Assembly (NCBI RefSeq): GCF_947498635.1
Contig: NZ_CANMKV010000022.1
Coordinates: 1-64,000, forward strand
Reading direction: 5' to 3'
From: an uncultured Microbulbifer sp.
GTDB lineage: Bacteria > Pseudomonadota > Gammaproteobacteria > Pseudomonadales > Cellvibrionaceae
DNA: 64,000 nucleotides
Within the stretch, counting starts at the first letter, position 1; each line of letters starts with the position of its first letter. This document shows, piece by piece, positions 47,478-64,000 of this stretch. The notes below the pieces were generated by a model. That model did no database searches and was not told the origin of the DNA. It saw only the letters and a list, made by a program, of their open reading frames with translations. Made by a program: the position numbers and the translations under genes.

Positions 47478-48020
47478 TTAGAGAGGTAGCTGTTTAGTCA
47501 TAATGATGTGGTCGATGTTGTAGCCATGTTTAACCACGGCGAGGTCCAGCAGTTCATCAATAATTGCCTCATCCAGTTGAGGGGTACGGCTCAGAAGATA
47601 GAGACTGCTGCGATCGGGGTCGCCTACCAAGGACCATTGATACGTGGGATCCAACTCCAAGACCCAGTAGTTACCATTGGTTTTGCCATCGAAGAATGAA
47701 ACCGCAAGCTTGCTATTCGTTTCATCTATGGGGGTAGCAGAGCCTTGTACGCTGATTGGAAAACCGTACTTCGGGTGTAGGATTCGGCAAAAGTTGAACA
47801 CACTGAGTGTGCCATCATCGTTGAGGCCATAGTCTGCCGTAACCGCTGTGCAAGCAGGCTGGAAGATTTGTGGCAAACGGGCTATTTCATACCACTTACC
47901 AACATACTGATAAACGTCCACATAGGGTACCGTTTCAAGTTCAGACTCACTATCGGCCCAGGAGAAATGAGCCCCAAAAGCCAGTAGAAAAACCCCAAAA
48001 CCTTTTACCAATCCCTTCAT
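47478..48020 (-). CDS. Bacterial lipocalin (Blc-like)
   Basis: 180 residues. The Sec signal peptide ends SWA, with no lipobox cysteine, so this is a soluble periplasmic lipocalin rather than the usual lipoprotein. Motif 1 VDVYQYVGKWYEIARLPQIF, then YGLNDDGTLSVFNFCR, the NYWVLELDPTYQWSLVGDPDRSSLYLLSRTP block and the terminal helix DELLDLAVVKHGYN are all typical of Blc. It binds fatty acids or lysophospholipids and has a stress role in the envelope. Confidence 0.9.
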   Translation of the reverse strand: MKGLVKGFGVFLLAFGAHFSWADSESELETVPYVDVYQYVGKWYEIARLPQIFQPACTAVTADYGLNDDGTLSVFNFCRILHPKYGFPISVQGSATPIDETNSKLAVSFFDGKTNGNYWVLELDPTYQWSLVGDPDRSSLYLLSRTPQLDEAIIDELLDLAVVKHGYNIDHIIMTKQLPL

Positions 48021-48255
48021 GTTCTAATTTCCTTGTCATTTGATTGAGTCACTTTCCACCGTACCAACCGTGCGATGGCAAACTCTTTACGAGAGGAAAG
48101 CTGGAACGGATTAATCAATTGTTGATTTGGGGAAGATCTTCACAATAACTTCAAGAATGGCCGGCTTTGCCCTCAGAATTTAGCCAGATTTTTTTGACAA
48201 AAAGGGCAGCCTTAACTATTCGCCCGTTACTTGGCCTTGTATCAGGGAGATTATA

Positions 48256-48531
48256 ATGAGGAAGAATTTTTCACTATCGACGGTAGTCTCATTGGCATGG
48301 GCGATTAGCTGGCGAGCGATCGTTATCAATCTTCCGATATACATGCCGTTTTCCGCCCTAGATAAGCTGGGTTACGAGTTTCCTAACTGGTTTTGGTACC
48401 TGCTTTGTATCTTGGGTGGTTTTTTTTCGTATGTACTTGCATTTTGGTGGATCCTCTCGCGAGGTTACGGCTCTCAAAACCGCCAAAAGCTGAAAATATT
48501 TGAACAAGAGAGTGGCAACAAGCAAGTATAA
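48256..48531 (+). CDS. Small membrane protein of unknown function
   Basis: 91 residues with two hydrophobic helices (about 9-30 and 42-68) and a basic tail. An AGGGAG Shine-Dalgarno lies 7 bp before the ATG. WYLLCILGGFFSYVLAFWWILSRGYG is the second helix. I recognise no family. It is 71 bp upstream of the flavoprotein gene and may be in its operon. Confidence 0.55.
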   Translation: MRKNFSLSTVVSLAWAISWRAIVINLPIYMPFSALDKLGYEFPNWFWYLLCILGGFFSYVLAFWWILSRGYGSQNRQKLKIFEQESGNKQV

Positions 48532-48601
48532 GTTGGGTTACATTTTGATGGCTCTGCCAATAAACCATGCCTTCTCGCCAAACCAATAAGTAGGCCATGC
48601 T

Positions 48602-49861
48602 ATGTCACAGGAAATTCCCGTTGATGTACTGATTCTCGGAGGTGGTATTCAGGGAGCAACCCTGATGAGGGCGCTGATACCGGAGTACTCGGTGATACTG
48701 GTCGATGACGAGTTCGGTGATGCTGAATCCCTGCATTTCCACGGTTACTTCTCCTCTGGCTGGAATGCCGCCAACCCGCAAGCTGCGGAGATTCACAGGG
48801 CTGCCGCGCAACGCTGGCACAAAGAGCTTGCGACTAGCGGTGTGAATAGTCGAATAACTGATTTCCATGCAGCGCTGACTCCGGACTTCTTAAAGATGGT
48901 TGAAGGTAACTGGGCTGAAGCGGCTATCCCTTCTGAGGAGGTGGAATTGCCAGGGATCTTTGATCCGGATGGTTTGCCACCAAATCGCAGGTTCAGATTT
49001 CCTGGCGATCTTATTTTTGATGGCGCTGCAGCCTATCTCAGTGTCAGCGAGCCCTTGAGACAGCAAATATATCGTGGCCGGTTGGCATCGTTTCAGCTTG
49101 CGGGCTCAGATATTGAGCGAGTAATTCTGGATATGGACGGTCGCTCTTGCGCAGTAAAGCCAGAGTTGGTGATTTCCGCCTGTGGTGCGGGTAATGCTGA
49201 GGTAATTCGACAGTTGGGTGTTGCAGAGGAGCAGGTGCAAAATTCTCAGATGGTGAGGCCGCTACACATGCTTTTGGCCCGAGGCCCCGATATTCCAAAG
49301 GTTTCTGCTTACCTAATTGACTTAATGGTGATGCATCACCCGTTGGAGGAGGGGGAAGGCCTCTGGATTCTTACCCTTAACCCGGACGTGCCCAAGTTTA
49401 AAGCGGGTGTTGTGGATAGATGCATTCCTCCAGAAATTGAGAATGATCTGCTTTGTGCATCCTTCAAGCGCCTTGCCAGTGTAATGCCCAGCTTTGCGGC
49501 CTGGGCCGAGGGGTGCCAGTGGTCGGTATACGCTGGCTGGAAAACGGATGCACCAGGCCCTAATAGTGATCCGTTGGTACATCTGGAGTATCCAACGCCC
49601 TATCAACTGGATGATTTTGGTCTGAAAAATTTCCTGGCGGTCTGGCCCAATCACTGGGGTTTGGCTCTGGACGTTGCGGATGATGCCGGTGAGTGGGTGC
49701 GCTCCAAATTGAAGCCTCACCACCCCCAGCCAGGTTCGAATAGTGGGCTGCCAGCAGGTACCGGCAGTGGACATACCATACAAAATGGCTGGCAGAGTGA
49801 TGAGTTGTTATGGCATTCATGGGGTGAGTTTGCCCGGCAGGTGGGTTATCACAATGAATAG
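48602..49861 (+). CDS. FAD-dependent oxidoreductase of the DAO superfamily
   Basis: 419 residues. The N-terminal dinucleotide fold VDVLILGGGIQGATLMRALIPEYSVILVDD is followed by the DAO-like second FAD region VISACGAGNAEVIRQLGV near residue 200. The C-terminal part (WSVYAGWKTDAPG, FLAVWPNHWGLALDVADDAGEWV) is consistent with a DAO enzyme. The usual substrate-binding features are not recognisable. It lies just upstream of the LacI-controlled sugar locus but before its first operator, so it is probably not part of it. Confidence 0.75.
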   Translation: MSQEIPVDVLILGGGIQGATLMRALIPEYSVILVDDEFGDAESLHFHGYFSSGWNAANPQAAEIHRAAAQRWHKELATSGVNSRITDFHAALTPDFLKMVEGNWAEAAIPSEEVELPGIFDPDGLPPNRRFRFPGDLIFDGAAAYLSVSEPLRQQIYRGRLASFQLAGSDIERVILDMDGRSCAVKPELVISACGAGNAEVIRQLGVAEEQVQNSQMVRPLHMLLARGPDIPKVSAYLIDLMVMHHPLEEGEGLWILTLNPDVPKFKAGVVDRCIPPEIENDLLCASFKRLASVMPSFAAWAEGCQWSVYAGWKTDAPGPNSDPLVHLEYPTPYQLDDFGLKNFLAVWPNHWGLALDVADDAGEWVRSKLKPHHPQPGSNSGLPAGTGSGHTIQNGWQSDELLWHSWGEFARQVGYHNE

Positions 49862-49960
49862 CACACTCTCAAAATCGTAGGTTGAAGTCTCCAAATGCCG
49901 CATCTCGTCATCAAAAATCTATTCTTGGTTGAATATGACGCCATGTTGCGCGTTGATAGT

Positions 49961-50014
49961 TTGCAGTGGCTGCTTTTTTCTGTATTTTAAATAGAAATGT
50001 AACCGGTTACATTT
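49961..50014 (+). promoter_or_regulatory. Promoter and LacI-type operator of the sugar locus (operator 1)
   Basis: A perfect 20-bp palindrome at 49995-50014 is built on TGTAACCGGTTACA. A plausible promoter, TTGCAG (49961-49966), 16 bp, TATTTT (49983-49988), would place it at the transcription start. The same core recurs at 57026 and 57173, and a LacI-family gene lies in the locus (54062), so the two very likely belong together. Confidence 0.75.
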
Positions 50015-50154
50015 CACTGTAGCTGATTCTTCCATGTTGTGTATTCCTCTATGAAGGGCGTATGCACTTGGCGAAATAAAAGCCATAACAATAAAGGTCA
50101 GGGGCCTCGCCTCTATCGGGCGATAGTGCGCTCCCCATGGAAAGTAGTGTGGGT

Positions 50155-51318
50155 ATGAAAATAAGAATGGGCATGGTTGGTGGTGGAGAAGGTGCGTTTA
50201 TCGGGGCCATACACCGAATGGCGGCTGCACTGGATGGCGAGATTGAGCTGGTGGCGGGTTGCTTCAGTAGTAACCCAAAGCAAGGGCGAATGACTGGAGA
50301 GAAACTGGGGCTCGACCCCGAACGCGTTTACCAGAGTTACCAGCAGCTGTTTTCAGAGGAGGCTAAGCGCAGCGTCGATGATCGCGTTGAGTTTATCGCG
50401 GTTGTCACCCCGAATGATCTACACCTGCCGGTCGCTATCGCAGCTTTGCGTGCGGGCTTCCATGTACTTTCCGACAAGCCTGCAGCTGGCAATTTGGAAG
50501 AGACTCTGGCGCTGCAACAAGAAGTTGTCCGTAGCGAGCGAATCTATGGTCTTACTCATACTTATGCGGCCTATCCGATGGTGGTTCAAGCAAAGGAGAT
50601 TCTTCGCAGAGGGGAGCTTGGGAACATTCGCCGGGTCACAGTCACCTATCCTCAAGGCTGGCTGGCCCTGGCGGATGACACGAAGGGCAGTAAGCAGGCG
50701 GGCTGGCGGACAGATCCTAAACGCTCAGGTGAAAGTGGCTGCTTTACCGATATCGGTACCCATGCTCACTATTTAGTGGAATTTGTTACTGGCGAAAGAA
50801 TTTCTGAGGTTTGTGCAGATTTGCAGTCAGTAGTCGATGAACGGGCACTGGATGATGATGGTGCTGCTTTGTTCAAACTGACAGGGGGGGGGCGCGGTAC
50901 TTTGACGGCTAGTCAGGTTTGTGGAGGCGAAAGCAATAACCTCAATATCAGCATTTACGGTGAGCGGGGATCGCTGTTTTGGGAGCAGGAATCTCCAAAC
51001 CAGTTGCAAATCAAATACCGGGGAAAACCGAAGGCCACTCTTCAAGCTGGTGTTGATTGCGAATATCTGGATAAAAAGGTTCGAGCCCTATGTCGAACTC
51101 CGCAGGGCCACCCAGAGGGCTATATAGAAGCATTTGCCAACATATACCGGGACTTTGCACAGATGGTGCGGAGCCAACGGAGAGATTTTCCGGTACAGAG
51201 TGGTAACTGTGTTGGGGGGATCGATGCAGGTGTTCGCGCAATGGCATTTGTGCGCGGAGCCCTGGAAAGCAGTTGTCAGCAATCTTCCTGGGTAACGTTG
51301 GCACCTTATTGGGAGTGA
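50155..51318 (+). CDS. Gfo/Idh/MocA-family oxidoreductase
   Basis: 387 residues from the ATG at 50155; an upstream ATG at 50137 is possible. NAD(P)-binding GMVGGGEGAFIGAIHRMAA, the catalytic DKPAAGN motif near residue 110 (usual EKP) and GCFTDIGTHAHYLVEFVTG with the active-site Asp/His. It has no signal, so it is cytoplasmic. Members reduce or oxidise sugars, often at C3 in 3-keto-sugar pathways. First gene of the LacI-controlled locus. Confidence 0.92.
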   Translation: MKIRMGMVGGGEGAFIGAIHRMAAALDGEIELVAGCFSSNPKQGRMTGEKLGLDPERVYQSYQQLFSEEAKRSVDDRVEFIAVVTPNDLHLPVAIAALRAGFHVLSDKPAAGNLEETLALQQEVVRSERIYGLTHTYAAYPMVVQAKEILRRGELGNIRRVTVTYPQGWLALADDTKGSKQAGWRTDPKRSGESGCFTDIGTHAHYLVEFVTGERISEVCADLQSVVDERALDDDGAALFKLTGGGRGTLTASQVCGGESNNLNISIYGERGSLFWEQESPNQLQIKYRGKPKATLQAGVDCEYLDKKVRALCRTPQGHPEGYIEAFANIYRDFAQMVRSQRRDFPVQSGNCVGGIDAGVRAMAFVRGALESSCQQSSWVTLAPYWE

Positions 51319-51540
51319 GAGAAACACGTACTTTTTTCTATAAACCAAGCACCTCTTATACGTGGTAACTCTGATGTAGGAAGTTCCCTGGCAGGGTGGG
51401 TAGTACGGCGGATAGTACGGTACAGGGAAGTACCGGTGCCGGCCAAGTGCCAGCCACCTTTCGACGAGCGCAAGAAATTTCCATAGGGATTGCAGAGTTA
51501 AACAGAGTTCATAAGTACAGCAGTAAAAAGGATAACAATA

Positions 51541-52602
51541 ATGAAGGCACCCACAATTCAGGGGCCCGGAATTTTTCTCGCCCAGTTTCTCCCGCCTGCG
51601 AAAGAGCCAGTAACGTTGGAGTCGATGGTGCGTTGGGCGGCGGGGCTCGGCTACCGGGGTGTACAGGTACCCACATGGGACAAGCGTGTTTTTGACTTGG
51701 AGCTGGCCAGCACTAGCCAAGCTTACTGTGATGATGTGTTGGGAATCTGCGATAGCGCAGGCGTGCAAATCTCTGAGCTGTCCACCCATTTACAGGGACA
51801 GCTCGTAGCTGCACACCCTGCGTACAAGGAAATGTTGGATATTTTTGCTCCGGAGAGCTTGCGCGGCGACCTGTCGGCCCGAGCTGAGTGGGCGAGCAAC
51901 CAGTTGGTTTTGGCGGCCAGAGCCAGTGCCAATCTGAAGCTCAAATCGCATGCAACCTTTTCTGGTGCATTACTCTGGCACACTTTTTACCCCTGGCCTC
52001 AGCGCCCCGCACAGTTAGTGGAGGAGGGGTTTCAAGCATTAGGTCGTTTGTGGCGCCCCATTTTGGATGCATTTGACCATGCAGGGGTCGATGTTTGCTA
52101 CGAACTGCATCCGGGTGAAGACCTCCACGATGGACTGACCTTCGAGCGTTTTCTCCACGAAGTGGAGGATCACCCAAGGGCGAATATTCTCTACGATCCC
52201 AGCCACCTGCTTTTACAGCAAATGGACTACTTGGCTTTTATCGATATTTACCACGAGCGTATCAAGGCCTTCCACGTGAAGGATGCGGAATACCACCCGA
52301 GTGGGCGGGCCGGTGTTTACGGCGGTTATGCGCCCTGGATTGATCGGCCTGGCCGTTTTCGTTCGCTGGGTGATGGCCAAGTGGATTTTCGAGGAATTTT
52401 TAGCCGGCTGACCCAGTATGGCTACGACCGCTGGGCAGTTCTGGAGTGGGAATGCTGTATCAAGGATCAGCATCAAGGCGCCAGTGAGGGTGCGCCGTTT
52501 ATTCGGGATCATCTGATCACAGTGGCCGAGAAGGCCTTTGATGATTTCGCTGGAGGGCAAACAGATCGCGCCAGAAATCGCCGAATACTAGGGCTGGATT
52601 AG
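51541..52602 (+). CDS. Sugar phosphate isomerase/epimerase-like TIM barrel protein
   Basis: 353 residues of the xylose-isomerase-like AP-endonuclease-2 fold. Metal-binding residues appear in order: VCYELHPGEDLHDG (Glu), LYDPSHLLLQQMD (Asp/His), IKAFHVKDAEYHP (His) and AVLEWECCIKDQHQG (Glu). Cytoplasmic. Typical partner of Gfo/Idh/MocA enzymes in keto-sugar catabolism. A 222-bp spacer separates it from the preceding gene; no promoter is evident there. Confidence 0.92.
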   Translation: MKAPTIQGPGIFLAQFLPPAKEPVTLESMVRWAAGLGYRGVQVPTWDKRVFDLELASTSQAYCDDVLGICDSAGVQISELSTHLQGQLVAAHPAYKEMLDIFAPESLRGDLSARAEWASNQLVLAARASANLKLKSHATFSGALLWHTFYPWPQRPAQLVEEGFQALGRLWRPILDAFDHAGVDVCYELHPGEDLHDGLTFERFLHEVEDHPRANILYDPSHLLLQQMDYLAFIDIYHERIKAFHVKDAEYHPSGRAGVYGGYAPWIDRPGRFRSLGDGQVDFRGIFSRLTQYGYDRWAVLEWECCIKDQHQGASEGAPFIRDHLITVAEKAFDDFAGGQTDRARNRRILGLD

Positions 52603-52682
52603 CCATGGTAAACCGGTGAAATTGAACTGAGATTGATGTCATTGCACAACCGATAACAATAATTGATGCGGAGACCGGATAA

Positions 52683-54005
52683 ATGGAAACACAGACAAAG
52701 ACCCTGCACAGGAATATCTTCCTGGTAGGCAATCTCTCGATCTTTATGATCGGCCTTGGATTCGCGGTCAGGGCCTCGATTGCCGGTAACTTACAGTCTG
52801 ATATTTACGATCATATTGACCTTGCCAACTCCACCGCCATGCTGGGGGAAGCCTTGGGTTTCACATTTACCGGTTTTGCACTCACCTTACTGTTTGGCAG
52901 TGCCTTGGTGGACTTAGTCGGCATCAAGAGAATGCTGTTGCTTTCATCAATTGGTTATGTGATGGGCAGCCTGCTCATTATCACAGCCTCCATGGTGCCC
53001 CCGGGAGAGGGGGTGGAAAATCTGGTCATGGCTGGACTGCTCCTCACAGGACTGGGTTGGGGGGCAGTGGAGGCCGCCAGTAATCCGATGGTTGCCGCTG
53101 TCGATCCAGAGAATAAGACACACCGTTTAAACGTGCTGCATGCTTGGTGGCCCGCGGGCATCGTGGTGGGAGGGCTATTAGGGCTGGCAATTTCTGCCCT
53201 CGAGTTTCCCTGGCAGTTGAATCTGATCGTCCTCGCCTTACCTGCAGTAGTCATGGCCTGGCTCGTTGCCGTAACAGATTTCCCGGTAACTGAACGCGTT
53301 TCTTCCGGTATCAGTTACGGCGAAATGCTTAAGGAAGTTTTTAAACAGCCCATGTTTATCCTTCTGTGGGTGTGTATGTGGCTGACGGCTGCAACAGAGC
53401 TGGCGCCGGGCCAATGGGTGGATCTGACCCTCTCAAGGGTTGTCGGTATGAAGGGCATTCTTATCCTGGTGTACGTCAGCATGTTGATGTTTGTGATGCG
53501 TCATTTTGCTGGACAGTTAGCGAAGAAGTTGTCCTCTGTTGGGCTTTTGTGGTTAAGCAGTCTGCTTGCAGCGGTAGGGCTCTACAGCCTGGGTATGGCC
53601 AGGACCCCGGTCACGGCGCTCCTGGCAGCTACTGTCTGGGGCATTGGTGTCTGTTATATGTGGCCGACCATGCTCGCCACTGTGTCTGAACGCTTTGTGC
53701 GCGGCGGGGCGCTTTTTTTGGGGCTACTGGGTTTTGCCGGTGGTATGTCTATCCAATTTGTCCTGCCGAAACTCGGAGTCATTTTCGACAATGCCAAGAT
53801 CGAGGCTGCAGGTGGTCTGGAAGCCTTCGAAAAATTATCTGGTGATGAACTGGATGCAGTACTGGCAACCGCCTCGGTTGAGTCCTTCCAATCGCTGGCA
53901 GTGGTCCCTCTCATTTTGTTACCCATTTTTGCGTTTATCTGGCTTTGGGATCGCCGGCAGGCTGCCAGTAAAACAGAGAGTGTGATTACAGTGGGGAACC
54001 CGTAG
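52683..54005 (+). CDS. MFS transporter, probable sugar or sugar-derivative permease
   Basis: 440 residues with 12 membrane helices. The first half has LFGSALVDLVGIKRMLLLSSIGYVMGS, a major-facilitator loop 2-3 signature. It is probably the inner-membrane importer that brings the periplasmic product to the Gfo/Idh and isomerase enzymes. Direction and substrate are inferred from context. Confidence 0.88.
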   Translation: METQTKTLHRNIFLVGNLSIFMIGLGFAVRASIAGNLQSDIYDHIDLANSTAMLGEALGFTFTGFALTLLFGSALVDLVGIKRMLLLSSIGYVMGSLLIITASMVPPGEGVENLVMAGLLLTGLGWGAVEAASNPMVAAVDPENKTHRLNVLHAWWPAGIVVGGLLGLAISALEFPWQLNLIVLALPAVVMAWLVAVTDFPVTERVSSGISYGEMLKEVFKQPMFILLWVCMWLTAATELAPGQWVDLTLSRVVGMKGILILVYVSMLMFVMRHFAGQLAKKLSSVGLLWLSSLLAAVGLYSLGMARTPVTALLAATVWGIGVCYMWPTMLATVSERFVRGGALFLGLLGFAGGMSIQFVLPKLGVIFDNAKIEAAGGLEAFEKLSGDELDAVLATASVESFQSLAVVPLILLPIFAFIWLWDRRQAASKTESVITVGNP

Positions 54006-54061
54006 ATGGTTTCGATCTGTGCGAAAATAGTCCACTTCCAGTCGAAAATTAGCAGGAATAT

Positions 54062-55069
54062 ATGTCAAACATTCGCGAAGTTGCACGTCGCTCTGGTGTT
54101 TCGGTCGCGACCGTGTCCAGGGCTCTGAAAGACCCGCAAATGGTTTCTCCGCGAACTAGAGAGCGGGTGTTGAAGGCCGTGGAGGAGGCCGGTTACCGGC
54201 CCAACCAACTGGCGAGAAACTTCAGTTCTGGTAAGTCATTTGCGGTGATGGTACTGGTCCCAAATATCGCCAATCCCTTTTTTTCCAAGGTTATCCGGGG
54301 AATAGAAAAAGCTGCTCAAGATCAGGGTTACTCAGTGTTACTGGGGGATACCAAGGGCGATACCGCTCACGAGCAATTTTATGCGGGCATGGCACTGACA
54401 AATCAGGCAGATGGTTTGATACAGCTGGGTGGTTGTTATCCGTTTGCGGAAAAAGATGCGGCCCTGGCAGCGTCGGTTCCGATGGTGAATGCCTGTGAGC
54501 GGATTGCTGAAGATGACCGGTATCCAGTCGTTGAGCTGGATAACAGCGGTGCAGCACAGGCGCTGGCTCGACATCTAATAGGGCTTGGCCACCGCCGAAT
54601 AGGCGTGATTACCGGTCCAATGAAAAGTCCAATTGTGCGTGATCGTTTAGCCGGATTCGAAGAAGAAATGCAAAGACATGGCCTTACATTGAATACGGAA
54701 CTAGTTGTCAACGGAGAGTTCACTATGCCATCAGGTGCCGAGGGCGCACAAAAGCTACTTTCTTCTATCAGTGCGCCTACCGCCATTTTTTGTATGAATG
54801 ATGAAATGGCTATTGGCGCCATACATCAAGCGAAAAAGATGGGGCTACAAATTCCCACAGATGTATCCGTGGCGGGTTTTGACAATATCGAGTTTTCGCA
54901 ATTTACCGATCCCCCCCTGACCACAGTTGACCAGCCAGCAGAAGCACTAGGCCGATATGCGATGGAAACCCTGCGCCAGATTATTGATGGGAAACCAATG
55001 AAATCGAGTCGGACCATTTTGCCGTTTGATCTGGTCGTACGTGGAAGTACGGACCGCTACCAGGATTGA
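54062..55069 (+). CDS. LacI-family transcriptional repressor of the sugar locus
   Basis: 335 residues. LacI helix-turn-helix IREVARRSGVSVATVSRALKDPQMVSPRTRERVLKAVEEAGYRPN at residues 3-49, including the hinge helix N-x-x-A-R (NQLARNF), then a periplasmic-binding-protein-like ligand domain. The recognition helix SVATVSRAL is of the type that binds CG-centred palindromes, and TGTAACCGGTTAC occurs three times in the locus. Expected inducer: a sugar from the pathway. Confidence 0.95.
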   Translation: MSNIREVARRSGVSVATVSRALKDPQMVSPRTRERVLKAVEEAGYRPNQLARNFSSGKSFAVMVLVPNIANPFFSKVIRGIEKAAQDQGYSVLLGDTKGDTAHEQFYAGMALTNQADGLIQLGGCYPFAEKDAALAASVPMVNACERIAEDDRYPVVELDNSGAAQALARHLIGLGHRRIGVITGPMKSPIVRDRLAGFEEEMQRHGLTLNTELVVNGEFTMPSGAEGAQKLLSSISAPTAIFCMNDEMAIGAIHQAKKMGLQIPTDVSVAGFDNIEFSQFTDPPLTTVDQPAEALGRYAMETLRQIIDGKPMKSSRTILPFDLVVRGSTDRYQD

Positions 55070-55138
55070 CAGGAGTTCGGCGGTAAAACCAGTAATACCC
55101 CGAACAGATAACGACCATTTCATGTGGAGATGATAACG

Positions 55139-55858
55139 ATGAAAACACTCACAGAGACAAAACCATATTCACTTCTCATAGCAGCAGTTTTGCTAATCCC
55201 TCTGGGAGGCTGTGAGAGGGTGCCGGAAAAAACGGATACCCACGGTGGCTTCCAAGCCGAAAAGCAATGGCGATATTTGTTTGATGGTAAAACCTTGCAG
55301 GGCTGGGTTGCTGCAAGTGGGTCTCCGGTGGGAGAAGCCTGGCAGGTCATAGATGGCAACCTGGTGCTCACCGCCGGCGGGGCTGGGGATATTGTGACTG
55401 CGGATCAGTTTTCTGACTTTGAACTCGAGCTGGAGTGGAAGATCTCTGAGGGGGGGAACAGCGGCATTATTTATAGGGTAGCGGGTGGCAATGCACCGGT
55501 CTGGATGTCTGGTATGGAATATCAGGTATTGGATAACAGCGCCTTTCCCGATCTGGAGAAGCTCAGCCACACGGCGGGATCGGTATTCGATATGTACGCC
55601 CCCAAAGAAGATGAGGTGAAACCGGCGGGTGAGTTCAATAAAACCCGTATTCGTGTTGAGGATGGCCGAGTTGAGCACTGGCTAAATGGCAGCATGGTTG
55701 TGCGCTATGAACTCTGGTCTGAAGACTGGGATAGGCGTCTGGCCAACAGCAAGTTTTCTGCCTATCCAGATTTTGCCCGTAGCGAGAGCGGCTTTATCGC
55801 CCTTCAGGATCACGGAGACAAAGTCTGGTATCGCAATATCCGAATCCGGGAGCTGTAG
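55139..55858 (+). CDS. DUF1080 / 3-keto-disaccharide hydrolase family lipoprotein
   Basis: 239 residues from the ATG at 55139. The lipobox LGGC (Cys at 25) puts it in the envelope. The concanavalin-like domain has WRYLFDGKTLQGWVA, EAWQVIDGNLVL, FELELEWKISEGGNSGIIYRV and the C-terminal SGFIALQDHGDKVWYRNIRIREL. The family (PF06439) includes hydrolases of 3-keto-glycosides. It is placed 4 bp before tatA and near the TIM barrel and GMC genes, which fits a periplasmic 3-keto pathway. Confidence 0.92.
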   Translation: MKTLTETKPYSLLIAAVLLIPLGGCERVPEKTDTHGGFQAEKQWRYLFDGKTLQGWVAASGSPVGEAWQVIDGNLVLTAGGAGDIVTADQFSDFELELEWKISEGGNSGIIYRVAGGNAPVWMSGMEYQVLDNSAFPDLEKLSHTAGSVFDMYAPKEDEVKPAGEFNKTRIRVEDGRVEHWLNGSMVVRYELWSEDWDRRLANSKFSAYPDFARSESGFIALQDHGDKVWYRNIRIREL

Positions 55859-55861
55859 GCC

Positions 55862-56092
55862 ATGGGGATTTCCGGCGTGAGCATCTGGCAGATTCTAATT
55901 ATCCTTGGACTGGCGCTACTGTTGTTTGGCAGCGGTAAAATCCGTCGCATGGGTGAGGATCTCGGTGGGGCAATCAGCGGCTTCCGCCGATCGTTGCGGG
56001 AGTGCGATAAGGCAACATCGACTGTAGGATTTCAGAGCGATCTTTCTGGTAATTTGATTCAGTCTGGAGAGCACGCTGGAGAACAGGAATGA
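55862..56092 (+). CDS. TatA/E-family twin-arginine translocase protein inside the sugar locus
   Basis: 76 residues. GISGVSIWQILIILGLALLLFGSGKIRRMGEDLGGAISGFRRSL is the canonical TatA layout: a short N-terminal membrane helix, FG hinge and amphipathic helix; then a short polar tail. It starts 3 bp after the DUF1080 stop and overlaps the next gene (ATGA at 56089). No tatB or tatC accompanies it. The following gene and the GMC partner subunit both carry Tat signals, so it looks like a pathway-dedicated TatA. Confidence 0.93.
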   Translation: MGISGVSIWQILIILGLALLLFGSGKIRRMGEDLGGAISGFRRSLRECDKATSTVGFQSDLSGNLIQSGEHAGEQE

Positions 56093-57000
56093 AGCGTAGA
56101 ACTTTCTTACAGGCCAGTGCCGGCCTGGCCGCAGCTACCTTGACGACCCCTTCATTTGGCAGCAGTGGACATAGCATCGGTACTGATAAGGGGGGCTTCT
56201 TCAAAATTTCCCTCGCCCAGTGGTCCCTACATCGACAGCTGCGCAGTGGTGTTCTCAAGGTACTGGACTTCCCCGTCAAGGCAAAAAAAGCCTTTGCCAT
56301 TGATGCGGTGGAGTATGTAAACCAGTTTTTTGCCGATAAAGCCAAGGATCAAAAATTCCTGACGGCGTTGAGAGATCGCGCGGTAGATCACGGCGTAAAG
56401 AGCCTTTTGATAATGGTAGATGCCGAAGGAGCCCTCGGTAATCCAGACAAGCGCGAGAGACTTCAAGCCGTAGAGAATCATTACAAATGGGTTGAAGCCG
56501 CCAAATACTTGGGGTGTCACGCGATCAGGGTAAATGCTGGGGGGCAGGGCAGTAGTGAGGAAGTCGGCTCCGCGTGTACAGAGGGGCTGCGCGGGCTCTC
56601 AGAATTTGCTCAGGACTTTGATATCGACATTGTGGTGGAGAATCACGGTGGTTATTCCTCAAGCGGACTTTGGCTATCTCAGTTACTGCGGAAAGTGGAC
56701 ATGCCGAACTGCGGTAGCCTACCGGACTTTGGCAACTTCGGTAACTACGACCGTTATCTCGGGGTGCAGCAACTAATGCCTTTTGCTCGCGGAATCAGCG
56801 CAAAGAGTTTTTCTTTCGATGAGAGGGGTAACGAGGTCAATACGGACTTTGCCCGGATGCTACGGATAATACGAGATGCCGGTTACAAGGGATATATCGG
56901 CATTGAGTACGAGGGTTCCAGTGATGAGGAGTATGGAATTAAGGCCACGCAAAAGTTGCTACTGCGCTTATCGCAACAGATTGAGCCGGCCTTGTCTTAA
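56089..57000 (+). CDS. Tat-exported xylose-isomerase-like TIM barrel protein
   Basis: 303 residues. The Tat signal KRRTFLQASAGLAAATL starts the protein. The barrel has VEYVNQFFA, metal-ligand loops IVVENHGGYSSSG, NCGSLPDFGNFGNYDRYLGV and YIGIEYEGSSDEEYG. Members epimerise or isomerise sugars and keto-sugars. In this context it probably acts on the 3-keto product in the periplasm. Its start overlaps tatA by 4 bases. Confidence 0.9.
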   Translation: MKRRTFLQASAGLAAATLTTPSFGSSGHSIGTDKGGFFKISLAQWSLHRQLRSGVLKVLDFPVKAKKAFAIDAVEYVNQFFADKAKDQKFLTALRDRAVDHGVKSLLIMVDAEGALGNPDKRERLQAVENHYKWVEAAKYLGCHAIRVNAGGQGSSEEVGSACTEGLRGLSEFAQDFDIDIVVENHGGYSSSGLWLSQLLRKVDMPNCGSLPDFGNFGNYDRYLGVQQLMPFARGISAKSFSFDERGNEVNTDFARMLRIIRDAGYKGYIGIEYEGSSDEEYGIKATQKLLLRLSQQIEPALS

Positions 57001-57025
57001 ATAATAGATATAAGTTGATTTTTAG

Positions 57026-57039
57026 TGTAACCGGTTACT
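57026..57039 (+). promoter_or_regulatory. LacI-type operator 2
   Basis: TGTAACCGGTTACT: one end base differs from operators 1 and 3. It lies 26 bp after the TIM barrel stop and about 147 bp upstream of operator 3, a spacing that would allow DNA looping. Confidence 0.65.
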
Positions 57040-57149
57040 TTAGGATGATAGTCAATATTGAGGGGTTACGGTTGCAATTTATACGTTTAAGTCGAAAAGT
57101 CAGCGAATAACTATTAATTATTCAACGAATTCACAACAAATGAAAAAAA

Positions 57150-57186
57150 TTGACAAATAATATGGCCTTCGATGTAACCGGTTACA
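57150..57186 (+). promoter_or_regulatory. Promoter with overlapping operator 3 before the GMC gene
   Basis: TTGACA (57150-57155), 17-bp spacer, TGTAAC (57173-57178) as the -10. The perfect palindrome TGTAACCGGTTACA occupies 57173-57186, so a bound repressor would cover the -10. It drives GMC, its subunit 3 and possibly the TonB receptor and asparaginase. Confidence 0.75.
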
Positions 57187-57256
57187 CTTTTATCTTGAGT
57201 AATAATTAAAATTCACCGGACAATATAAAAATAATTTAGGAAGTAGGAGAGAGGCG

Positions 57257-59053
57257 ATGCCGAAGGATGACTTCGAGAAAAAAGAGTATGACGTGCTGAT
57301 TGTGGGCTCTGGCGCAGGTGGCGGTATGGCGGCCTATGTACTGGCGACAGCAGGATTAAAAGTACTGATGCTGGAGGCGGGACGATCCTATGACCCAGTC
57401 AAGGAAACCCCTATGTTCAATCTGCCCAAAGACGCACCTCTACGCGGAGGTAGTACACCGGAAAAGCCGTTTGGTTTTTATGATGCGACAGTCGACGGTG
57501 GTTGGCAGGTGCCTGGTGAGCCCTACACCCAGGCATCCAACGAACGAGGTCGGCGTTTCGATTGGTGGCGCGCGCGTATGCTTGGAGGCCGCACCAATCA
57601 CTGGGGGCGTATCTCCTTGCGTATGGGGGAGTACGATTTTAAGCCCCATTCACGGGATGGACTCGGTTTCGACTGGCCGATTAGTTATGCAGACCTGGCC
57701 CCCTACTACGACAAAACCGAGATGCTGATCGGTGTCTACGGCACCAATGAAGGGCTGGAAAATACGCCCGACTCTTCCGACGGTGTGTTATTGCCACCGC
57801 CTAAGCCACGTGCCTATGAACTCTTGGCGAAAAAGGCCTGCGACAAATTGGGTATTCCGGTGATTCCATCCCATTTGGCCATTCTCAGTGAGCGCCTAGA
57901 CCACAAAACTATTCCTCAAAAATTGTTCCCAGACAATAAGCTCGCCCAGGAGGTAACCCGCGAGTCAATGAAATCCCGTGCCGCTTGTTTTTGGGCCACA
58001 CCCTGCGGACGCGGTTGCTCCATCAAAGCGAATTTCCAATCCACTACCGTGCTGCTGCCGCCGGCGTTGGCCACTGGCAATATGGACATCATTACCGATG
58101 CCATGGTGCGCGAGGTTACCGTAGATAAGAAAGGTAATGCCAACGGGGTCGTATACATCGATAAAGGCACTCGTCAGGAAAGGTTTGCCAGTGCTCGTGC
58201 CGTAGTGGTGGCAGCCAGCGCCGCCGAAACGTCGCGCATTCTGCTCAATTCGAAAAGTAGCTTGTTCCCCGATGGCCTCGCCAATGGCAGTGGAGTCGTA
58301 GGTAAGTACCTGATGGATACTGTTGGCGCCGGCATCGGTGGCCAGATTCCCGCCCTGGAAAATATGCCTGCACATAACGAAGACGGTGCATCCGCGATGC
58401 ATATGTATATGCCCTGGTGGTTGTACAAGGAACAGCTCCGTGGGGATCTGAATTTTGCCCGCGGTTACCACATTGAGTTTGGCGGTGGCCGCAGTATGCC
58501 GGGCGCCGGCGCCTTCGGTGGTATGGGTGATTTCACCAGCGGCGCCTACGGCAAGGATCTGAAACAGGCCTGCCGGCGCTACTACGGTTCTTTTGTTTGG
58601 TTTGATGGGCGTGGAGAAATGATCCCCAATGAGGACAGCTACTGCGAAATTGATAATCAACAGGTAGACCAGTGGGGTATCCCCGTTCTGAAGTTCCACT
58701 GGAAGTGGAGCGAGCAGGAGTTGAACCAAGCGGCCCACATGCACAAAACCTTTGCTGAAATCATCGAAGGCATGGGCGGCAGGGTGACCTCTAAGGTTCA
58801 AACAGATGGGGCCAAGGCAATTATCAACGGTGGTGCGATCATTCATGAAGTGGGCACCGCGCGTATGGGTTCAAACCCAAATGACTCCGTGCTTAATCCT
58901 AACTGCCAGTCCTGGGAGGTTCCCAACCTCTTCCTTACCGATGGTGCCCCTTTTGTTTCCAATGCCGATAAAAACCCAACCCTAACCATTATGGCCCTGG
59001 CTTGGCGTACCAGTGACTACATCGTGGATCAGTTCAAGAAGAGGAATATCTGA
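57257..59053 (+). CDS. GMC-family sugar/glycoside dehydrogenase flavoprotein
   Basis: 598 residues. N-terminal FAD fold YDVLIVGSGAGGGMAAYVLATAGLKVLMLEAG, GMC segment WWRARMLGGRTNHWGR, and the C-terminal substrate region with IHEVGTARMGSNPNDSVLNP (the catalytic His) and SNADKNPTLTIMALAWR (second-sphere Asn). It has no signal peptide, whereas the next gene has one, so export as a folded complex is implied. Together they resemble glucoside 3-dehydrogenase and gluconate 2-dehydrogenase complexes. Expected reaction: oxidation of a sugar hydroxyl, electrons to a cytochrome c. No cytochrome gene is in this locus. Confidence 0.93.
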   Translation: MPKDDFEKKEYDVLIVGSGAGGGMAAYVLATAGLKVLMLEAGRSYDPVKETPMFNLPKDAPLRGGSTPEKPFGFYDATVDGGWQVPGEPYTQASNERGRRFDWWRARMLGGRTNHWGRISLRMGEYDFKPHSRDGLGFDWPISYADLAPYYDKTEMLIGVYGTNEGLENTPDSSDGVLLPPPKPRAYELLAKKACDKLGIPVIPSHLAILSERLDHKTIPQKLFPDNKLAQEVTRESMKSRAACFWATPCGRGCSIKANFQSTTVLLPPALATGNMDIITDAMVREVTVDKKGNANGVVYIDKGTRQERFASARAVVVAASAAETSRILLNSKSSLFPDGLANGSGVVGKYLMDTVGAGIGGQIPALENMPAHNEDGASAMHMYMPWWLYKEQLRGDLNFARGYHIEFGGGRSMPGAGAFGGMGDFTSGAYGKDLKQACRRYYGSFVWFDGRGEMIPNEDSYCEIDNQQVDQWGIPVLKFHWKWSEQELNQAAHMHKTFAEIIEGMGGRVTSKVQTDGAKAIINGGAIIHEVGTARMGSNPNDSVLNPNCQSWEVPNLFLTDGAPFVSNADKNPTLTIMALAWRTSDYIVDQFKKRNI

Positions 59054-59054
59054 G

Positions 59055-59750
59055 ATGAGCGAGGAAAAAACAAACCTAAGCCGCCGCAATGCCCTGCGTT
59101 TGATTGCCTCCACCGCTGTCGCTGTTCCGGTGATGGGCTGTTCTGAGGAGGTAGCGAAAAAAGTAGCGATCAGAGAGGACAAGCCAGCAACCAACCCCGC
59201 AATTAAAAAACTGGATGCACCAAAGCAAACTTTAGCCAGGGGGACACCGACGGACCCGGACCTGCTCAACCCGGTCGTGTCCTGGGAGATGCAACTGGAT
59301 GCGAGTGAGCTGGCGGTACTGGCGGCATTGTGCGATGTGATTATTCCAGCGGATGAAATTTCCCCGAGCGCTTCTTCGGTTGGGGCTCATCACTACATCA
59401 ATGAATACGTCAGTGCACCGTATACCAATAACAAGGCAGATCTCGTCACGATTCGCGGCGGAGTTGTTTGGCTGGAAGGAGAATCTAGGCGCAGGTTCGC
59501 AGTGGCATTTATTGAGCTGAGTGAAACTCAAAAAAGCGCGATCTGTGAAGACATTAAATGGGTCCGCAGCGCAAAGCCTGAATTTCAAGCTGGTGCACGT
59601 TTCTTCGCCAAGGTGAGAGTCCTTGTCTCGACCGCATTCTACACCACGGAGGAAGGCATGGCGGATATCGGCTACGTGGGCAACAGACCCATGGCCAGTT
59701 TCCCCGGAGCGCCGCCCGAAGTGCTAAAGCGACTCGGATTGGATGGTTAA
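59055..59750 (+). CDS. Gluconate 2-dehydrogenase subunit 3 family protein with Tat lipoprotein signal
   Basis: 231 residues from the ATG at 59055, a single base after the GMC stop. A Tat motif LSRRNALRLIAS leads to a lipobox-like VPVMGC near residue 34, then the subunit 3 domain (ASELAVLAALCDVIIPADEISPSASSVGAHHYINEYV, FIELSETQKSAICEDI, FYTTEEGMADIGYVGNRPM). It is the chaperone-like exported subunit that carries the GMC flavoprotein through the Tat pore. Confidence 0.92.
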   Translation: MSEEKTNLSRRNALRLIASTAVAVPVMGCSEEVAKKVAIREDKPATNPAIKKLDAPKQTLARGTPTDPDLLNPVVSWEMQLDASELAVLAALCDVIIPADEISPSASSVGAHHYINEYVSAPYTNNKADLVTIRGGVVWLEGESRRRFAVAFIELSETQKSAICEDIKWVRSAKPEFQAGARFFAKVRVLVSTAFYTTEEGMADIGYVGNRPMASFPGAPPEVLKRLGLDG

Positions 59751-59919
59751 TGATTGCTAATGGCTTCACCCTAGGGAGGGAAGATTCTATGTAAAAAATA
59801 ATGAGCCAGTGAGACGTAGACCTGAAACCGGGGCTTATCCGATGGCCGAAAACTTAAATGCACAGGGCCTAGAGGGTGAACGGAAAGCTCGAGAAGAATA
59901 ATAAAAGAGACATTGAGCA

Positions 59920-62688
59920 ATGAAAGAGAAATCTCTTAAAGTAAGTCGCCAAACGGAGTTATTACGCACGTCTGCCAGTATGTTGGTGCTATTCAGTATT
60001 GTCGGCATGGCACACGCGCAAAGCGTAGAACAGTCAGAAACAGAAAACCTGGTTCTCGAGGAAGTCGAGGTGCTGGGTATTCGCCAGAGTATGGTGAAAA
60101 ATCTCGATGTGAAGCGCTTCTCCAATGCGATAGTGGATTCAATAACGGCTGAAGATATCGGCAAGTTTCCCGATAAAAATGTTGCGGATTCATTGCAACG
60201 GGTGCCAGGAATTTCCATCGTTCGCAGTGGTGGCGAGGGCGCACGGGTCAGTATCCGCGGCACCGCGCCGGAACTTACTTTTACCCAGCTGAACGGCAAC
60301 TATATCGCTACTCCCGGTGATGATCCTTCACGGTCATTCGACTATTCCTTGTTACCTGCAACAATGATTTCCCGCGCAGACGTTTATAAAAGCCCAGAGG
60401 CAAAGCTGGATGAAGGCGGAATCGGCGGTACCGTAATTTTACATACCCGCAAGCCTCTGGATCTGGATGCCGGGGAAGGCATGCTATCCATAGAGACAAC
60501 CTATGCGGATGTCACGGAAAAGTATGAGCCGCAGTACACCGGTTTTTACTCCTGGAAAAATAATCAGGAATCCATAGGTGTGTTAGTTGGTTACTCCAAG
60601 CAGGATCGTCAAAACCGTGTGATTAGCACCACTACGGAAAACTGGGGCTGGCAAGGTGCTGAAAAGCCGCACGATGGTGTAGAGGCCAGAGGGCCCATGG
60701 TCGATGTCGACGGTAACGAATACCGGGATTTCTATGCACCCAGAGCGGTAGTGGGCAGTGTGTTTGAGGAGGAGCGCACCCGCGAGGGTATACAGTTCAG
60801 CGCACAGTGGCGTCCTGTAGAGCAGCTGGAGTTTGGCGTTAATTATTTTCGCTTTGAACAGGGCGGCGATTCGGAAAATTATCGTATCGTATTTCCCGAG
60901 TGGAACTACGGCAATGCGATAGCACCTGGTAGCCTGAAATTTGATAAGGATGGCGATACCTTACTCGGTATCGGCATGTTGGATAGTGGACAGGCGGAAT
61001 TGCAGTCCCCGCAGGTCGCCGGTGACTACACTCGCGCGAAGTATGTATCTGATACCCTGGATTTCAATGCGAGTTACCAGGGGGATGGCTATAGTATCCG
61101 CCTGGTTGTCGGTAATACCAGTGCGGAAGGAGGCCCCTCCGAGAAGTTGTTTGCCTCGGTAAACGCTCGCCAAGGCACTGTCACTGATTGGAGTTGGGAC
61201 CTCAGTAGTGGTACCGCCGAAATCGATACCAGTGCCGACCTGGGAGATCCTAATACCTATCCTTTATACGACTGGTTCTCTTCCCATTGGACCAGTAGTG
61301 AAGACGATGAAAACTACTACCAGCTGGATATTTCTGTCGATATGGATTATGGCTGGTTCAGCGCCTTGGACATTGGACTTAAATACCGCGACCACGAAAT
61401 TAACCGGCGTATCACCAGGCAAGCCTGGGATGATGACAACCCCCCATGCCCAACGATCAACTGGCCCAATGAAGAGGGTGAAGCAGGTCTTTGTTATCCC
61501 TGGTGGCCAGATGATTCATTTCATACTGACCCCAATGGGGTGCCGAATACCCTCGATATCCTTTCGAGTGGTCCGCTAGACAATATAATCGGTGGTGTGA
61601 ATGTGCCCAACTTCGCCCATCTGGAGTTTGAACAACTGAAGGCGTTTCTCTATGAGACTTATGGCAATCCCACGGTTACCGTAGAAAAGGATCAGGATTA
61701 CCGTATCGGGGAAGAGGTCACAGCAGCCTATGTCCAACAGAATTTTGCTTCAGCCACCTTGCGCGGTAACTTTGGCGTTCGCGCAGTGGAGACCAAACAA
61801 TATGCCCGTACTTACGACAATATTAATGGCGTCCTGCAGGCGGAGCCCAATGTCCGCGATAGCAGTAACACCGATTTTTTGCCCAGCGCCAATATAGCCT
61901 GGGATATTAACGATGAACTGGTCTTGCGTGCGGCTCTCGCTCGGGTCGTAGCCCGGGTAGATTACGGTGATCTGGGTGGCTCTGAGTCGATACACGCTCC
62001 GTTGCCTGGAGCGACTGTGCGCGATGGATTTGCGGGGAACTCCAAGCTGGAGCCCTATAAGGCGGATCAGTTTGATTTGGGCCTGGAGTGGTATTTCGGT
62101 GATGCTTCCGCAGTAGGATTGACCCTGTTCCGCAAGGATATCGCCTCATTCGTGATTAACGGCAGCTCCCTGGTGAGCAGGGAAATTGATGGTGATATAT
62201 GGAATGTGAACATGTCAATGCCGGTCAATGGTACCGATGCCAGTGCCCAAGGAGCCGAGCTGTTTGTTCAGTACGCTTTCGATAACGGTTTTGGGGTTTT
62301 TGCCAATTACACCTATACAGATACGGAATTGGCCAACCTTGATCTAGAGAGCGGTGAAACCATCAAAACGGAGATTGCGGGCACGTCCAAGGATCAATAC
62401 AACCTATCGGTATATTACGAGAATAACGACTTCAGTGTCCGGGCCTCTTACAACTATCGCAGCGCCTATGCCGATGGTTACAGTAATGGCGTGAACACCT
62501 TTACCGATGAGTACGACCAGCTGGATGTGAATGCTTCGTATCGTTTGATGGAAAACCTAACGCTCACGGCCTCCATTATTAATCTCACCGAAGAAAAGGT
62601 GGATAGGTATTGGGGCGAGGAAAATAGAGTCCTTGGTTCAGCCTATTCTGGCCGCCGCGCCTATATGGGGCTGACTTATAGCTTCTGA
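59920..62688 (+). CDS. TonB-dependent receptor (Xanthomonas/Caulobacter carbohydrate type)
   Basis: 922 residues. Signal peptide ending AHA, a TonB-box-like region (LVLEEVEVLGIRQSM), then the plug with the family signature VDSITAEDIGKFPDKNVADSLQRVPGISIVRSGGEGARVSIRGTAPE and LDEGGIGGTVILHTRKPLD. The 22-strand barrel ends YSGRRAYMGLTYSF with a terminal Phe. Receptors of this subfamily usually import glycans or related molecules. It is very likely the uptake gate for the substrate of this locus. Confidence 0.94.
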   Translation: MKEKSLKVSRQTELLRTSASMLVLFSIVGMAHAQSVEQSETENLVLEEVEVLGIRQSMVKNLDVKRFSNAIVDSITAEDIGKFPDKNVADSLQRVPGISIVRSGGEGARVSIRGTAPELTFTQLNGNYIATPGDDPSRSFDYSLLPATMISRADVYKSPEAKLDEGGIGGTVILHTRKPLDLDAGEGMLSIETTYADVTEKYEPQYTGFYSWKNNQESIGVLVGYSKQDRQNRVISTTTENWGWQGAEKPHDGVEARGPMVDVDGNEYRDFYAPRAVVGSVFEEERTREGIQFSAQWRPVEQLEFGVNYFRFEQGGDSENYRIVFPEWNYGNAIAPGSLKFDKDGDTLLGIGMLDSGQAELQSPQVAGDYTRAKYVSDTLDFNASYQGDGYSIRLVVGNTSAEGGPSEKLFASVNARQGTVTDWSWDLSSGTAEIDTSADLGDPNTYPLYDWFSSHWTSSEDDENYYQLDISVDMDYGWFSALDIGLKYRDHEINRRITRQAWDDDNPPCPTINWPNEEGEAGLCYPWWPDDSFHTDPNGVPNTLDILSSGPLDNIIGGVNVPNFAHLEFEQLKAFLYETYGNPTVTVEKDQDYRIGEEVTAAYVQQNFASATLRGNFGVRAVETKQYARTYDNINGVLQAEPNVRDSSNTDFLPSANIAWDINDELVLRAALARVVARVDYGDLGGSESIHAPLPGATVRDGFAGNSKLEPYKADQFDLGLEWYFGDASAVGLTLFRKDIASFVINGSSLVSREIDGDIWNVNMSMPVNGTDASAQGAELFVQYAFDNGFGVFANYTYTDTELANLDLESGETIKTEIAGTSKDQYNLSVYYENNDFSVRASYNYRSAYADGYSNGVNTFTDEYDQLDVNASYRLMENLTLTASIINLTEEKVDRYWGEENRVLGSAYSGRRAYMGLTYSF

Positions 62689-62760
62689 TCCTGCCTTACC
62701 TCTCGCGTGCGGATGCAGTGGTGTGTCCGCGCACTCAAGGCTCAAAGAGAACTCATCGTG

Positions 62761-63732
62761 ATGAACAAAAGAAAATTCTTGCGGTATTCCTTCCTCTCAA
62801 CTGTTACTGCCTTGACAGCACCGTCAGTGACTGCCATGGCCAAGCGTCATGCTAAGAAGGGAAAAAAACCAGTGGTGATTTCAACCTGGAACCACGGTGG
62901 CCCTGCCAATGAGGCAGCTTGGCCGATTCTCGCTGACGGTGGCAGGGCCTTGGATGCAGTAGAAGCCGGCGCTCGTGTCCCGGAAGCAGACCCGCAGGTT
63001 ACCAGTGTGGGATACGGTGGCTTTCCCGATCGGGATGGTGTCGTTACGTTGGACGCCTGTATTATGGATGAAAAGCAAAACTGCGGTTCAGTGGCTTTTC
63101 TGCAGGGTATAAAGCATCCCATTTCGGTCGCACGCAAAGTGATGGAGGAGACCCCCCATGTCATGTTGGTGGGTGAAGGTGCACAGCGTTTTGCCGTTGA
63201 GCAGGGATTTGAAATTGAAAATCTACTTACACCAAGAGCTGAGGCAGCTTGGCGTGAGTGGAAGCAGGAATCCTATTATCAGCCGGTGATCAATATCGAG
63301 AATCACGACACGATCGGTATTTTGGCTTTAGATCAAGACGGCCATCTTTCAGGTGCCTGCACTACCAGCGGTGCGGCCTTTAAGATGCATGGGCGGGTAG
63401 GGGACTCGCCAATTATCGGCGCTGGGCTCTATGTCGACAATGAAGTGGGGGCTGCCACTGCCACAGGCATGGGTGAGCTTATGATAAAAACAGTTGGCTG
63501 CCATCAGGTTGTGGAGTTAATGCGTCATGGCTACACACCGGAGGAGGCCTGCCGAGAGGCGATCGAGCGGATTGCACGAAAGCTTGGGGACTACAAGCAG
63601 TTCCAGGTGGGGTTTTTGGCTTTAGATAAGGCCGGTAACTATGGTGCCCATTGTATCCACCCCGGTTTTCACTATGCGGTTCGCGACGTGCTTGGTGCAC
63701 AGAGGATTAGCTCAAAAAGTAAGCTTGAGTGA
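62761..63732 (+). CDS. N4-(beta-N-acetylglucosaminyl)-L-asparaginase-type Ntn hydrolase
   Basis: 323 residues from the ATG at 62761. The signal region NKRKFLRYSFLSTVTALTAPSVTAMA is Tat-like with Lys-Arg instead of Arg-Arg. The fold shows VISTWNHGGPANEAAWPILADGGRALDAVEAGARVPEADPQVTSVGYGG and the autocleavage site ENHDTIGILALD, where Thr becomes the N-terminal nucleophile. It then has TTSGAAFKMHGRVGDSPIIGAGLYVDNEVGAATATG, all family hallmarks. Such enzymes split the bond between GlcNAc and asparagine. It lies 72 bp behind the TonB receptor. Confidence 0.93.
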   Translation: MNKRKFLRYSFLSTVTALTAPSVTAMAKRHAKKGKKPVVISTWNHGGPANEAAWPILADGGRALDAVEAGARVPEADPQVTSVGYGGFPDRDGVVTLDACIMDEKQNCGSVAFLQGIKHPISVARKVMEETPHVMLVGEGAQRFAVEQGFEIENLLTPRAEAAWREWKQESYYQPVINIENHDTIGILALDQDGHLSGACTTSGAAFKMHGRVGDSPIIGAGLYVDNEVGAATATGMGELMIKTVGCHQVVELMRHGYTPEEACREAIERIARKLGDYKQFQVGFLALDKAGNYGAHCIHPGFHYAVRDVLGAQRISSKSKLE

Positions 63733-63816
63733 TGGTTTTCTCAGCCTGCCTAACCTGCAACAAACACTGGTATTTCGATTCGTCACAATTTAGAGACAAA
63801 TTTTGTATCGCTCAGA

Positions 63817-64000
63817 TTAGTGCAGGGTCCGCACTTGCTGTCTGTTCAGGCGCAGTACGGGCGAAAAGCGAATCATATCCAGGAGAGTATCAATATAGCG
63901 CTCGCCTAAATCTCCGAGATCTTCTATACGTGGAGAAAGCAACCAGCTCTCAAGCACCCCAAAGAGGCCGCCGTGGAGCATTTGCTGAGCCAGGTCCAGA
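63817..64000 (-). CDS. C-terminal part of a TetR-family regulator (runs off the window)
   Basis: The last 60 codons on the minus strand, stop TAA at 63819-63817. LAQQMLHGGLFGVLESWLLSPRI and YIDTLLDMIRF match the ends of TetR ligand-binding domains. Start and DNA-binding part are outside. It is convergent with the asparaginase gene. Confidence 0.6.
   Translation of the reverse strand, partial: LDLAQQMLHGGLFGVLESWLLSPRIEDLGDLGERYIDTLLDMIRFSPVLRLNRQQVRTLH

Follow-up and report, generated by a model that had tools for sequence, protein, structure and literature searches.

In a 64,000-nucleotide stretch of an uncultured Microbulbifer sp. (contig NZ_CANMKV010000022.1, positions 1 to 64,000; hereafter the window), we identified eleven consecutive plus-strand genes, at 50155-63732, that most probably constitute a LacI-repressed locus for the catabolism of glycosides by an oxidation-elimination-hydration-reduction route. 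Pfam/NCBIfam searches assigned all eleven to families, and every family named in an earlier model-made account of the letters alone (the sequence-only reading) was present. That account had placed uptake at the outer membrane, C3 oxidation and cleavage in the periplasm, and the final steps in the cytoplasm, a scheme that homology and conservation both favor. Its remark that this set was not one it knew as described was too strong, as the core has been published for Caulobacter and Agrobacterium (PMC9007349, PMC10628242) and can be seen in the annotation of Pseudoalteromonas. Systems of this kind are known; the variant parts here are a private-looking LacI regulon, an added TatA and a barrel exported by the twin-arginine translocation (Tat) pathway, which we call TatXI.

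We infer the following reactions, directions of transport and roles. A TonB-dependent receptor would bring the glycoside, the presumed substrate, into the periplasm, where a GMC flavoprotein, exported with its Tat-lipoprotein partner Glu3, would oxidize the sugar at C3, and a DUF1080 lipoprotein, perhaps also TatXI, would break the activated glycosidic bond. An MFS permease would import the 3-keto sugar or the 2-hydroxy-3-keto-glycal, an AtHYD-type barrel (HYD) would hydrate the glycal, and a Gfo/Idh/MocA oxidoreductase (Gfo) would reduce the 3-keto sugar to the free hexose. The LacI-family regulator would bind three palindromes controlling both units of the locus, and the orphan TatA would add export capacity upon induction.

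Results

The gene set is more than a chance assembly, because 11 further genomes of the genus have it in the same order. Searching 58 genomes, its own included, for the GMC protein, we found it at 85-95% identity in eight others, all of the same genus. Together with the window, these eight loci and a further three located by TatXI searches make up a set of 12, every one of which preserves the order Gfo-HYD-MFS-LacI-DUF1080-GMC-Glu3-TonB; TatXI is present in 11 (not in genome G006) and TatA in 10 (not in G006 or G007). Its distribution is patchy. Of 48 genomes in the genus, 12 were found to have the locus, 11 of the 48 having been searched by TatXI and not by GMC; since loci were picked by one or the other protein, these counts show what stays together and not how frequent the locus is. 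Conservation in relatives had been named beforehand as a check on the sequence-only reading, which this core order in 12 congeneric loci did not refute. Furthermore, a more distant congener (G034) and a plasmid of Pseudoalteromonas sp. CF6-2 (NZ_CP091443.1) carry the genes in the order Gfo-HYD-MFS-DUF1080-GMC-Glu3 with a TonB receptor nearby, at 30-67% identity; LacI, TatA, TatXI and the asparaginase were not found in the stretch read of either. On Sphingobium and Croceicoccus plasmids, Gfo-HYD lies near a GMC enzyme and a TIM barrel-DUF6379 pair, which we take to be the C-glycoside eliminase arrangement.

The cytoplasmic end of the route is marked by HYD (51541..52602, plus strand; PF01261, AP_endonuc_2), which matches PDB entry 8ro4, a '2-hydroxy-3-keto-glucal hydratase', over residues 5-352 (525 bits, E 1e-156). 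We assume 8ro4 to be AtHYD of Agrobacterium. Because of this close match, HYD is most plausibly the enzyme of the hydration step, a predicted 2-hydroxy-3-keto-glucal hydratase of the AtHYD type, and Gfo (50155..51318, plus strand; PF01408, PF22725) the final reductase of the pathway, acting on the 3-keto sugar. By homology, then, a putative hydratase stands beside a Gfo-family reductase, and the two adjoin each other in all 12 congeneric loci as well as in Exilibacterium, G034, Pseudoalteromonas, G394 and G402. The best PDB match of Gfo is 3v5n (317 bits). Its open reading frame opens at 50137, and the ATG at 50155, where the sequence-only reading had put the start, was kept after signal reading. 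Levoglucosan catabolism was rejected on the score of Gfo, 105 bits against a cut-off of 650 bits. The MFS permease (52683..54005, plus strand; PF07690), a predicted importer of the keto-sugar or glycal, follows HYD.

The DUF1080 protein (55139..55858, plus strand; open reading frame from GTG 55124) belongs to the 3-keto-disaccharide hydrolase family (3keto-disac_hyd, PF06439; 2.6e-53, 181 bits against a gathering cut-off of 26.8) and has, by eye, a GGC lipobox, and so combines this domain with secretion, as expected of a candidate periplasmic 3-keto-glycoside cleavage enzyme. Its gene is the sole PF06439 match in the genome, and relatives of the protein exist in the PDB.

By family, the GMC protein (57257..59053, plus strand; PF05199/PF00732) and Glu3 (59055..59750, plus strand; Gluconate_2-dh3, PF13618) correspond to a flavin adenine dinucleotide-dependent GMC dehydrogenase and its subunit 3, the former being the putative large subunit of a glycoside 3-dehydrogenase. 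GMC has an HEVGT motif at His530, and Glu3, whose open reading frame opens at GTG 59013 and whose start we prefer near ATG 59055 from signal reading, is the sole PF13618 match in the genome (5e-21). Glu3 carries an RR...GC signal (Tat plus lipobox), seen again in congeners, and none was evident by eye in GMC; GMC is therefore best read as being carried out by Glu3. GMC enzymes include alcohol oxidoreductases, and as the similarity of this one to solved enzymes is modest, it might act on a non-sugar alcohol, in which case the locus would be misassigned. We consider this very improbable: the top PDB matches of GMC are sugar dehydrogenases, namely glucose and fructose dehydrogenase, and a PF13618 subunit, DUF1080, HYD and Gfo all travel with it. 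The TonB-dependent receptor (59920..62688, plus strand; PF00593/PF07715), the predicted outer-membrane importer of the glycoside, keeps its position in all 12 congeneric loci, the copies in G007 and G812 being just 44-45% identical.

The regulator (54062..55069, plus strand; PF00356, Peripla_BP_3) has CytR as its best NCBIfam match (328 bits against a cut-off of 436). Upstream of Gfo lies a palindrome of the LacI-operator type, ATGTAACCGGTTACAT (49997..50012), which is identical in nine of the 12 loci, with one change in two and two changes in one, while the flanking DNA drifts. Two further putative operators, at 57025..57040 (two mismatches in 16) and 57172..57187 (one mismatch in 16), both fall inside the 256-bp gap between the TatXI and GMC genes, so that palindromes stand at the very genes that a LacI protein with a local regulon would be predicted to control; the pair before GMC is spaced 145-154 bp. 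With at most one mismatch, three sites are found in nine of the 12 loci, the window included, two sites in two loci and one site in one; the Exilibacterium cluster has two, and 78 control loci (1.33 Mb) have none.

The exact 14-mer core of the operator occurs at only two places in the 4.52-Mb genome, 49998 and 57173, both in this locus, and the LacI regulon accordingly looks private to it, in keeping with the sequence-only reading, which had credited the locus with its own regulator. Allowing one mismatch adds two places, 57026 in the locus and C51:17576 inside another gene; the latter was dismissed, lying within a gene that by eye resembles an RND pump. A single transcription unit was rejected on account of the 256-bp gap and the two operators before GMC. 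Two operator-controlled units, from Gfo to TatXI and from GMC to TonB or the asparaginase, probably share one local operator type. A spacer of the usual length, 17 bp, separates a TTGACA from the start of the third operator's core, and this operator would therefore cover the -10 position.

Several results weigh against this reading of the locus. Gfo scores far under every NCBIfam equivalog cut-off, and most other GMC relatives listed are about 30-38% identical. In LacABC systems the cytochrome c subunit, LacC, is encoded together with the dehydrogenase; here neither the eleven proteins nor any open frame of at least 80 codons at 46000-64000 of the window shows a CxxCH motif, and no counterpart of LacC is evident there. 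With two mismatches allowed, the operator pattern occurs at 14 places in the genome versus 16 for a backwards control, and therefore only the near-exact sites carry weight. Finally, a promoter scan gave 7 sites, fewer than the 13.4 in shuffles.

The last gene of the set encodes a glycosylasparaginase-like hydrolase (62761..63732, plus strand; Asparaginase_2, PF01112; open reading frame from GTG 62707, start preferred near ATG 62761), and the locus might mainly serve a glycan or glycopeptide such as N-acetylglucosaminyl-asparagine (GlcNAc-Asn), with this enzyme as the key one. The gene follows the TonB gene by 18 bp, and the protein has an HDTIG motif and glycosylasparaginases as its nearest solved relatives (1p4k, 406 bits). 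However, a full-length match near TonB was found in only six of the ten assessable loci (the window, G806, G004, G029, G003 and G023, in the last about 1 kb further on), G007 and G812 not being assessable because of contig ends. Near TonB in G009, G808 and G006 it was not found, and in G013 (L040:2420-3409) it is cut just after HDTIG and runs into unrelated sequence; two asparaginase matches contain a single stop, which precedes the signal peptide. Because it is missing or cut in several loci while the rest stays, we regard the asparaginase as a loosely attached accessory and a glycopeptide-centered locus as improbable. The sequence-only reading was right to list the gene in the window, but its membership of the locus is unstable.

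TatXI (56089..57000, plus strand), the second AP_endonuc_2 barrel, bears an RR signal and belongs to a different family from HYD. Sequence searches gave it one close solved relative, the Planctomyces protein 4ovx from structural genomics, and its best named match is from Exilibacterium tricleocarpae. E184-x-H186, D213 and E273 are invariant in 9/9 aligned TatXI proteins, E-x-H being the pattern of the Glu ligand and catalytic His of eliminases according to PMC10628242. The alpha subunit of C-glycoside eliminases (DgpC/CGE) has a Glu-x-His, Asp, His, Glu site, which TatXI does not complete, and no Pfam match to a DUF6379-type beta subunit was found among the eleven genes. The aligned family keeps most, not all, of the predicted C-glycoside-eliminase active site.

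In the gammaproteobacteria Exilibacterium, G394 and G402, TatXI sits with Gfo-HYD-MFS in a cluster that has no DUF1080 gene inside it. A strict replacement of DUF1080 by TatXI was nevertheless rejected, since Exilibacterium, G394, G402 and G240 have DUF1080 genes elsewhere, that of G394 on the contig of its cluster but some 9 kb outside it and that of Exilibacterium having no 40-mer in common with L062. Around TatXI relatives elsewhere, such pathway genes occur within 3 kb in 20 of 79 loci, versus 7 of 79 at 6-9.5 kb.

We therefore weighed two assignments. TatXI may resemble YcjR and be a periplasmic 3-keto-sugar epimerase or isomerase, or it may be a sugar isomerase of an unrelated sort, leaving cleavage to DUF1080 alone, and to this we give only a little less than an even chance; the eliminase pattern invariant in all nine aligned proteins and the three clusters with TatXI but without DUF1080 speak against it. 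That TatXI is instead an exported, metal-altered 3-keto-glycoside eliminase of the 4ovx family, interchangeable with DUF1080 and, in one genus, furnished with a dedicated co-regulated TatA, seems to us rather unlikely as a whole. The main reading of the locus, which allows TatXI a possible part in cleavage, has to contend with Ser237, which replaces the metal-binding beta7 His of eliminases, with the majority of TatXI relatives elsewhere, which are not beside such genes, and with five distant copies in the genus that are not beside them either. A fold comparison, a re-ranking of Foldseek's own matches, does not separate eliminase from epimerase for TatXI, and neither AtOGE nor AtHYD (8ro4) is named among the 50 fold matches listed.

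In other phyla the neighbors of TatXI are mixed. A scan of 75 proteins encoded upstream and 78 encoded downstream, counting the 25 commonest families, gave immediate neighbors that include Gluconate_2-dh3 (4/75), DUF1080 (2/75) and, downstream, UbiA (6/78). The UbiA prenyltransferases suggest another setting for the TatXI family. In Parapedobacter (L063, L065, L078), two TatXI-family genes lie about 3 kb apart.

The orphan TatA (55862..56092, plus strand) scores above the cut-off of PF02416 (1e-9) and TIGR01411 and has the FG hinge, and is thus a TatA; the genome also holds an ordinary tatA/tatB pair. The gene starts 3 bp after that of DUF1080 and overlaps that of TatXI by 4 bp. Close TatXI proteins (58-100% identity) occur in 11 of the 48 genomes of the genus, with an extra TatA directly beside them in 10 of the 11, which bears out the Tat component of its own that the sequence-only reading had seen in the locus. 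Five genomes of the genus have only a distant TatXI (45-51%), with no TatA beside it. Extra tat genes occur elsewhere in G002, G019 and G809; in G002 and G019 (L206, L207) these are a second tatA/tatB-like pair, and no TatXI match was found in either genome.

The cores of the ten operon TatA proteins, all of which keep the FG hinge, share 41.5-58.5% identity with the cores of 30 chromosomal TatA proteins and form one group in a short-sequence tree (support 0.974). In a search of 390 genomes of the order, with matches listed down to about 9e-14, just those from the window, G009 and G013 among the listed matches have at least 60% identity to the operon TatA, and the next-best listed has 59.6 bits against at least 79 bits. 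Within the samples searched, no TatA of this lineage was seen outside the genus. The ratio of nonsynonymous to synonymous differences (pN/pS) is at most 0.40 in 28 pairs from eight of the ten sequences, with pS near saturation, and the operon TatA looks to be under purifying selection. A link between TatA and TatXI across bacteria was rejected: none turned up in 79 named TatXI loci in a search with a profile built from operon and chromosomal TatA, which was positive only in six congener loci and whose reach to distant TatA is unproven. We found no paper in the open literature pairing TatA with TatXI or DUF1080, an absence that is not proof.

We read TatA as a probable co-induced boost of Tat capacity. 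It might also be a passenger with no specific role, a real possibility that we nonetheless hold to be the lesser one. TatXI occurs in G007 in the absence of TatA, and G006, which likewise lacks TatA, retains the same small subunit of GMC; this suggests that the operon TatA is dispensable for Glu3 and, in G007, for TatXI. Campylobacter jejuni likewise has a second tatA, tatA2, inside a Tat-substrate operon (nap), which encodes a nitrate reductase where the present locus has a barrel enzyme and a flavoprotein partner; according to PMC4148689, loss of tatA2 cut NapA activity by about half and the authors judge it not to be specifically required for NapA. Against a passenger stand the low pN/pS (with its near-saturated pS), the translational overlap with the TatXI gene and the co-inheritance with TatXI in 10 of 11 genomes.

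Outside the operator-controlled units, a lipocalin-like gene (named by eye; 47478-48020) and a DAO-type FAD oxidoreductase (PF01266; 48602-49861) lie upstream, and both recur upstream of the locus in several congeners. Beyond the asparaginase (L055:3818-9109) are a TetR regulator and an AcrB-type efflux pump, probably unrelated to the locus.

Discussion

The locus is closest in outline to several systems described elsewhere. In Caulobacter crescentus, compared here by its published description (PMC9007349), a DUF1080 protein encoded beside LacABC is needed for growth on lactose, and a transporter, two epimerases and a reductase are encoded upstream of lacB. Both clusters encode a dehydrogenase and a DUF1080 protein that bears a signal peptide, along with a transporter, two epimerases and a reductase, whereas the present one has no cytochrome gene and has its own LacI with local operators, a TatA-TatXI pair and an asparaginase. 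In Agrobacterium tumefaciens (PMC10628242), the eliminase OGE, the hydratase AtHYD, whose function is there called preliminary, and a Gfo reductase act after the oxidizing GlycDH. With that GlycDH-OGE-HYD-Gfo operon the locus shares a close HYD relative and, as predicted, the order of chemistry, but here DUF1080 and perhaps TatXI would take the cleavage step of OGE.

The Pseudoalteromonas plasmid, which has the same core order, differs in having AraC nearby instead of LacI, in lacking TatA and TatXI, and in another small barrel gene at its end. The levoglucosan pathway of Bacillus smithii (LgdA-B1-B2-C) shares oxidation, elimination, hydration and reduction, but begins with the levoglucosan dehydrogenase LgdA and not with an exported GMC enzyme (PMC7676230).

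With one LacI, three putative operators and one candidate substrate class, the locus is a compact and testable system. Clusters in relatives hold DUF1080 and TatXI alone or together. Setting G006, which has DUF1080 alone, beside Exilibacterium, whose cluster has TatXI alone, and the window, which has the two and TatA as well, could reveal what 4ovx, a widespread structural-genomics orphan, does. The same three-way comparison could test whether a TatA paralogue serves particular cargo; if the reading of TatXI and its TatA as a dedicated pair were true, a sugar-catabolic operon would contain a Tat component tied to its cargo.

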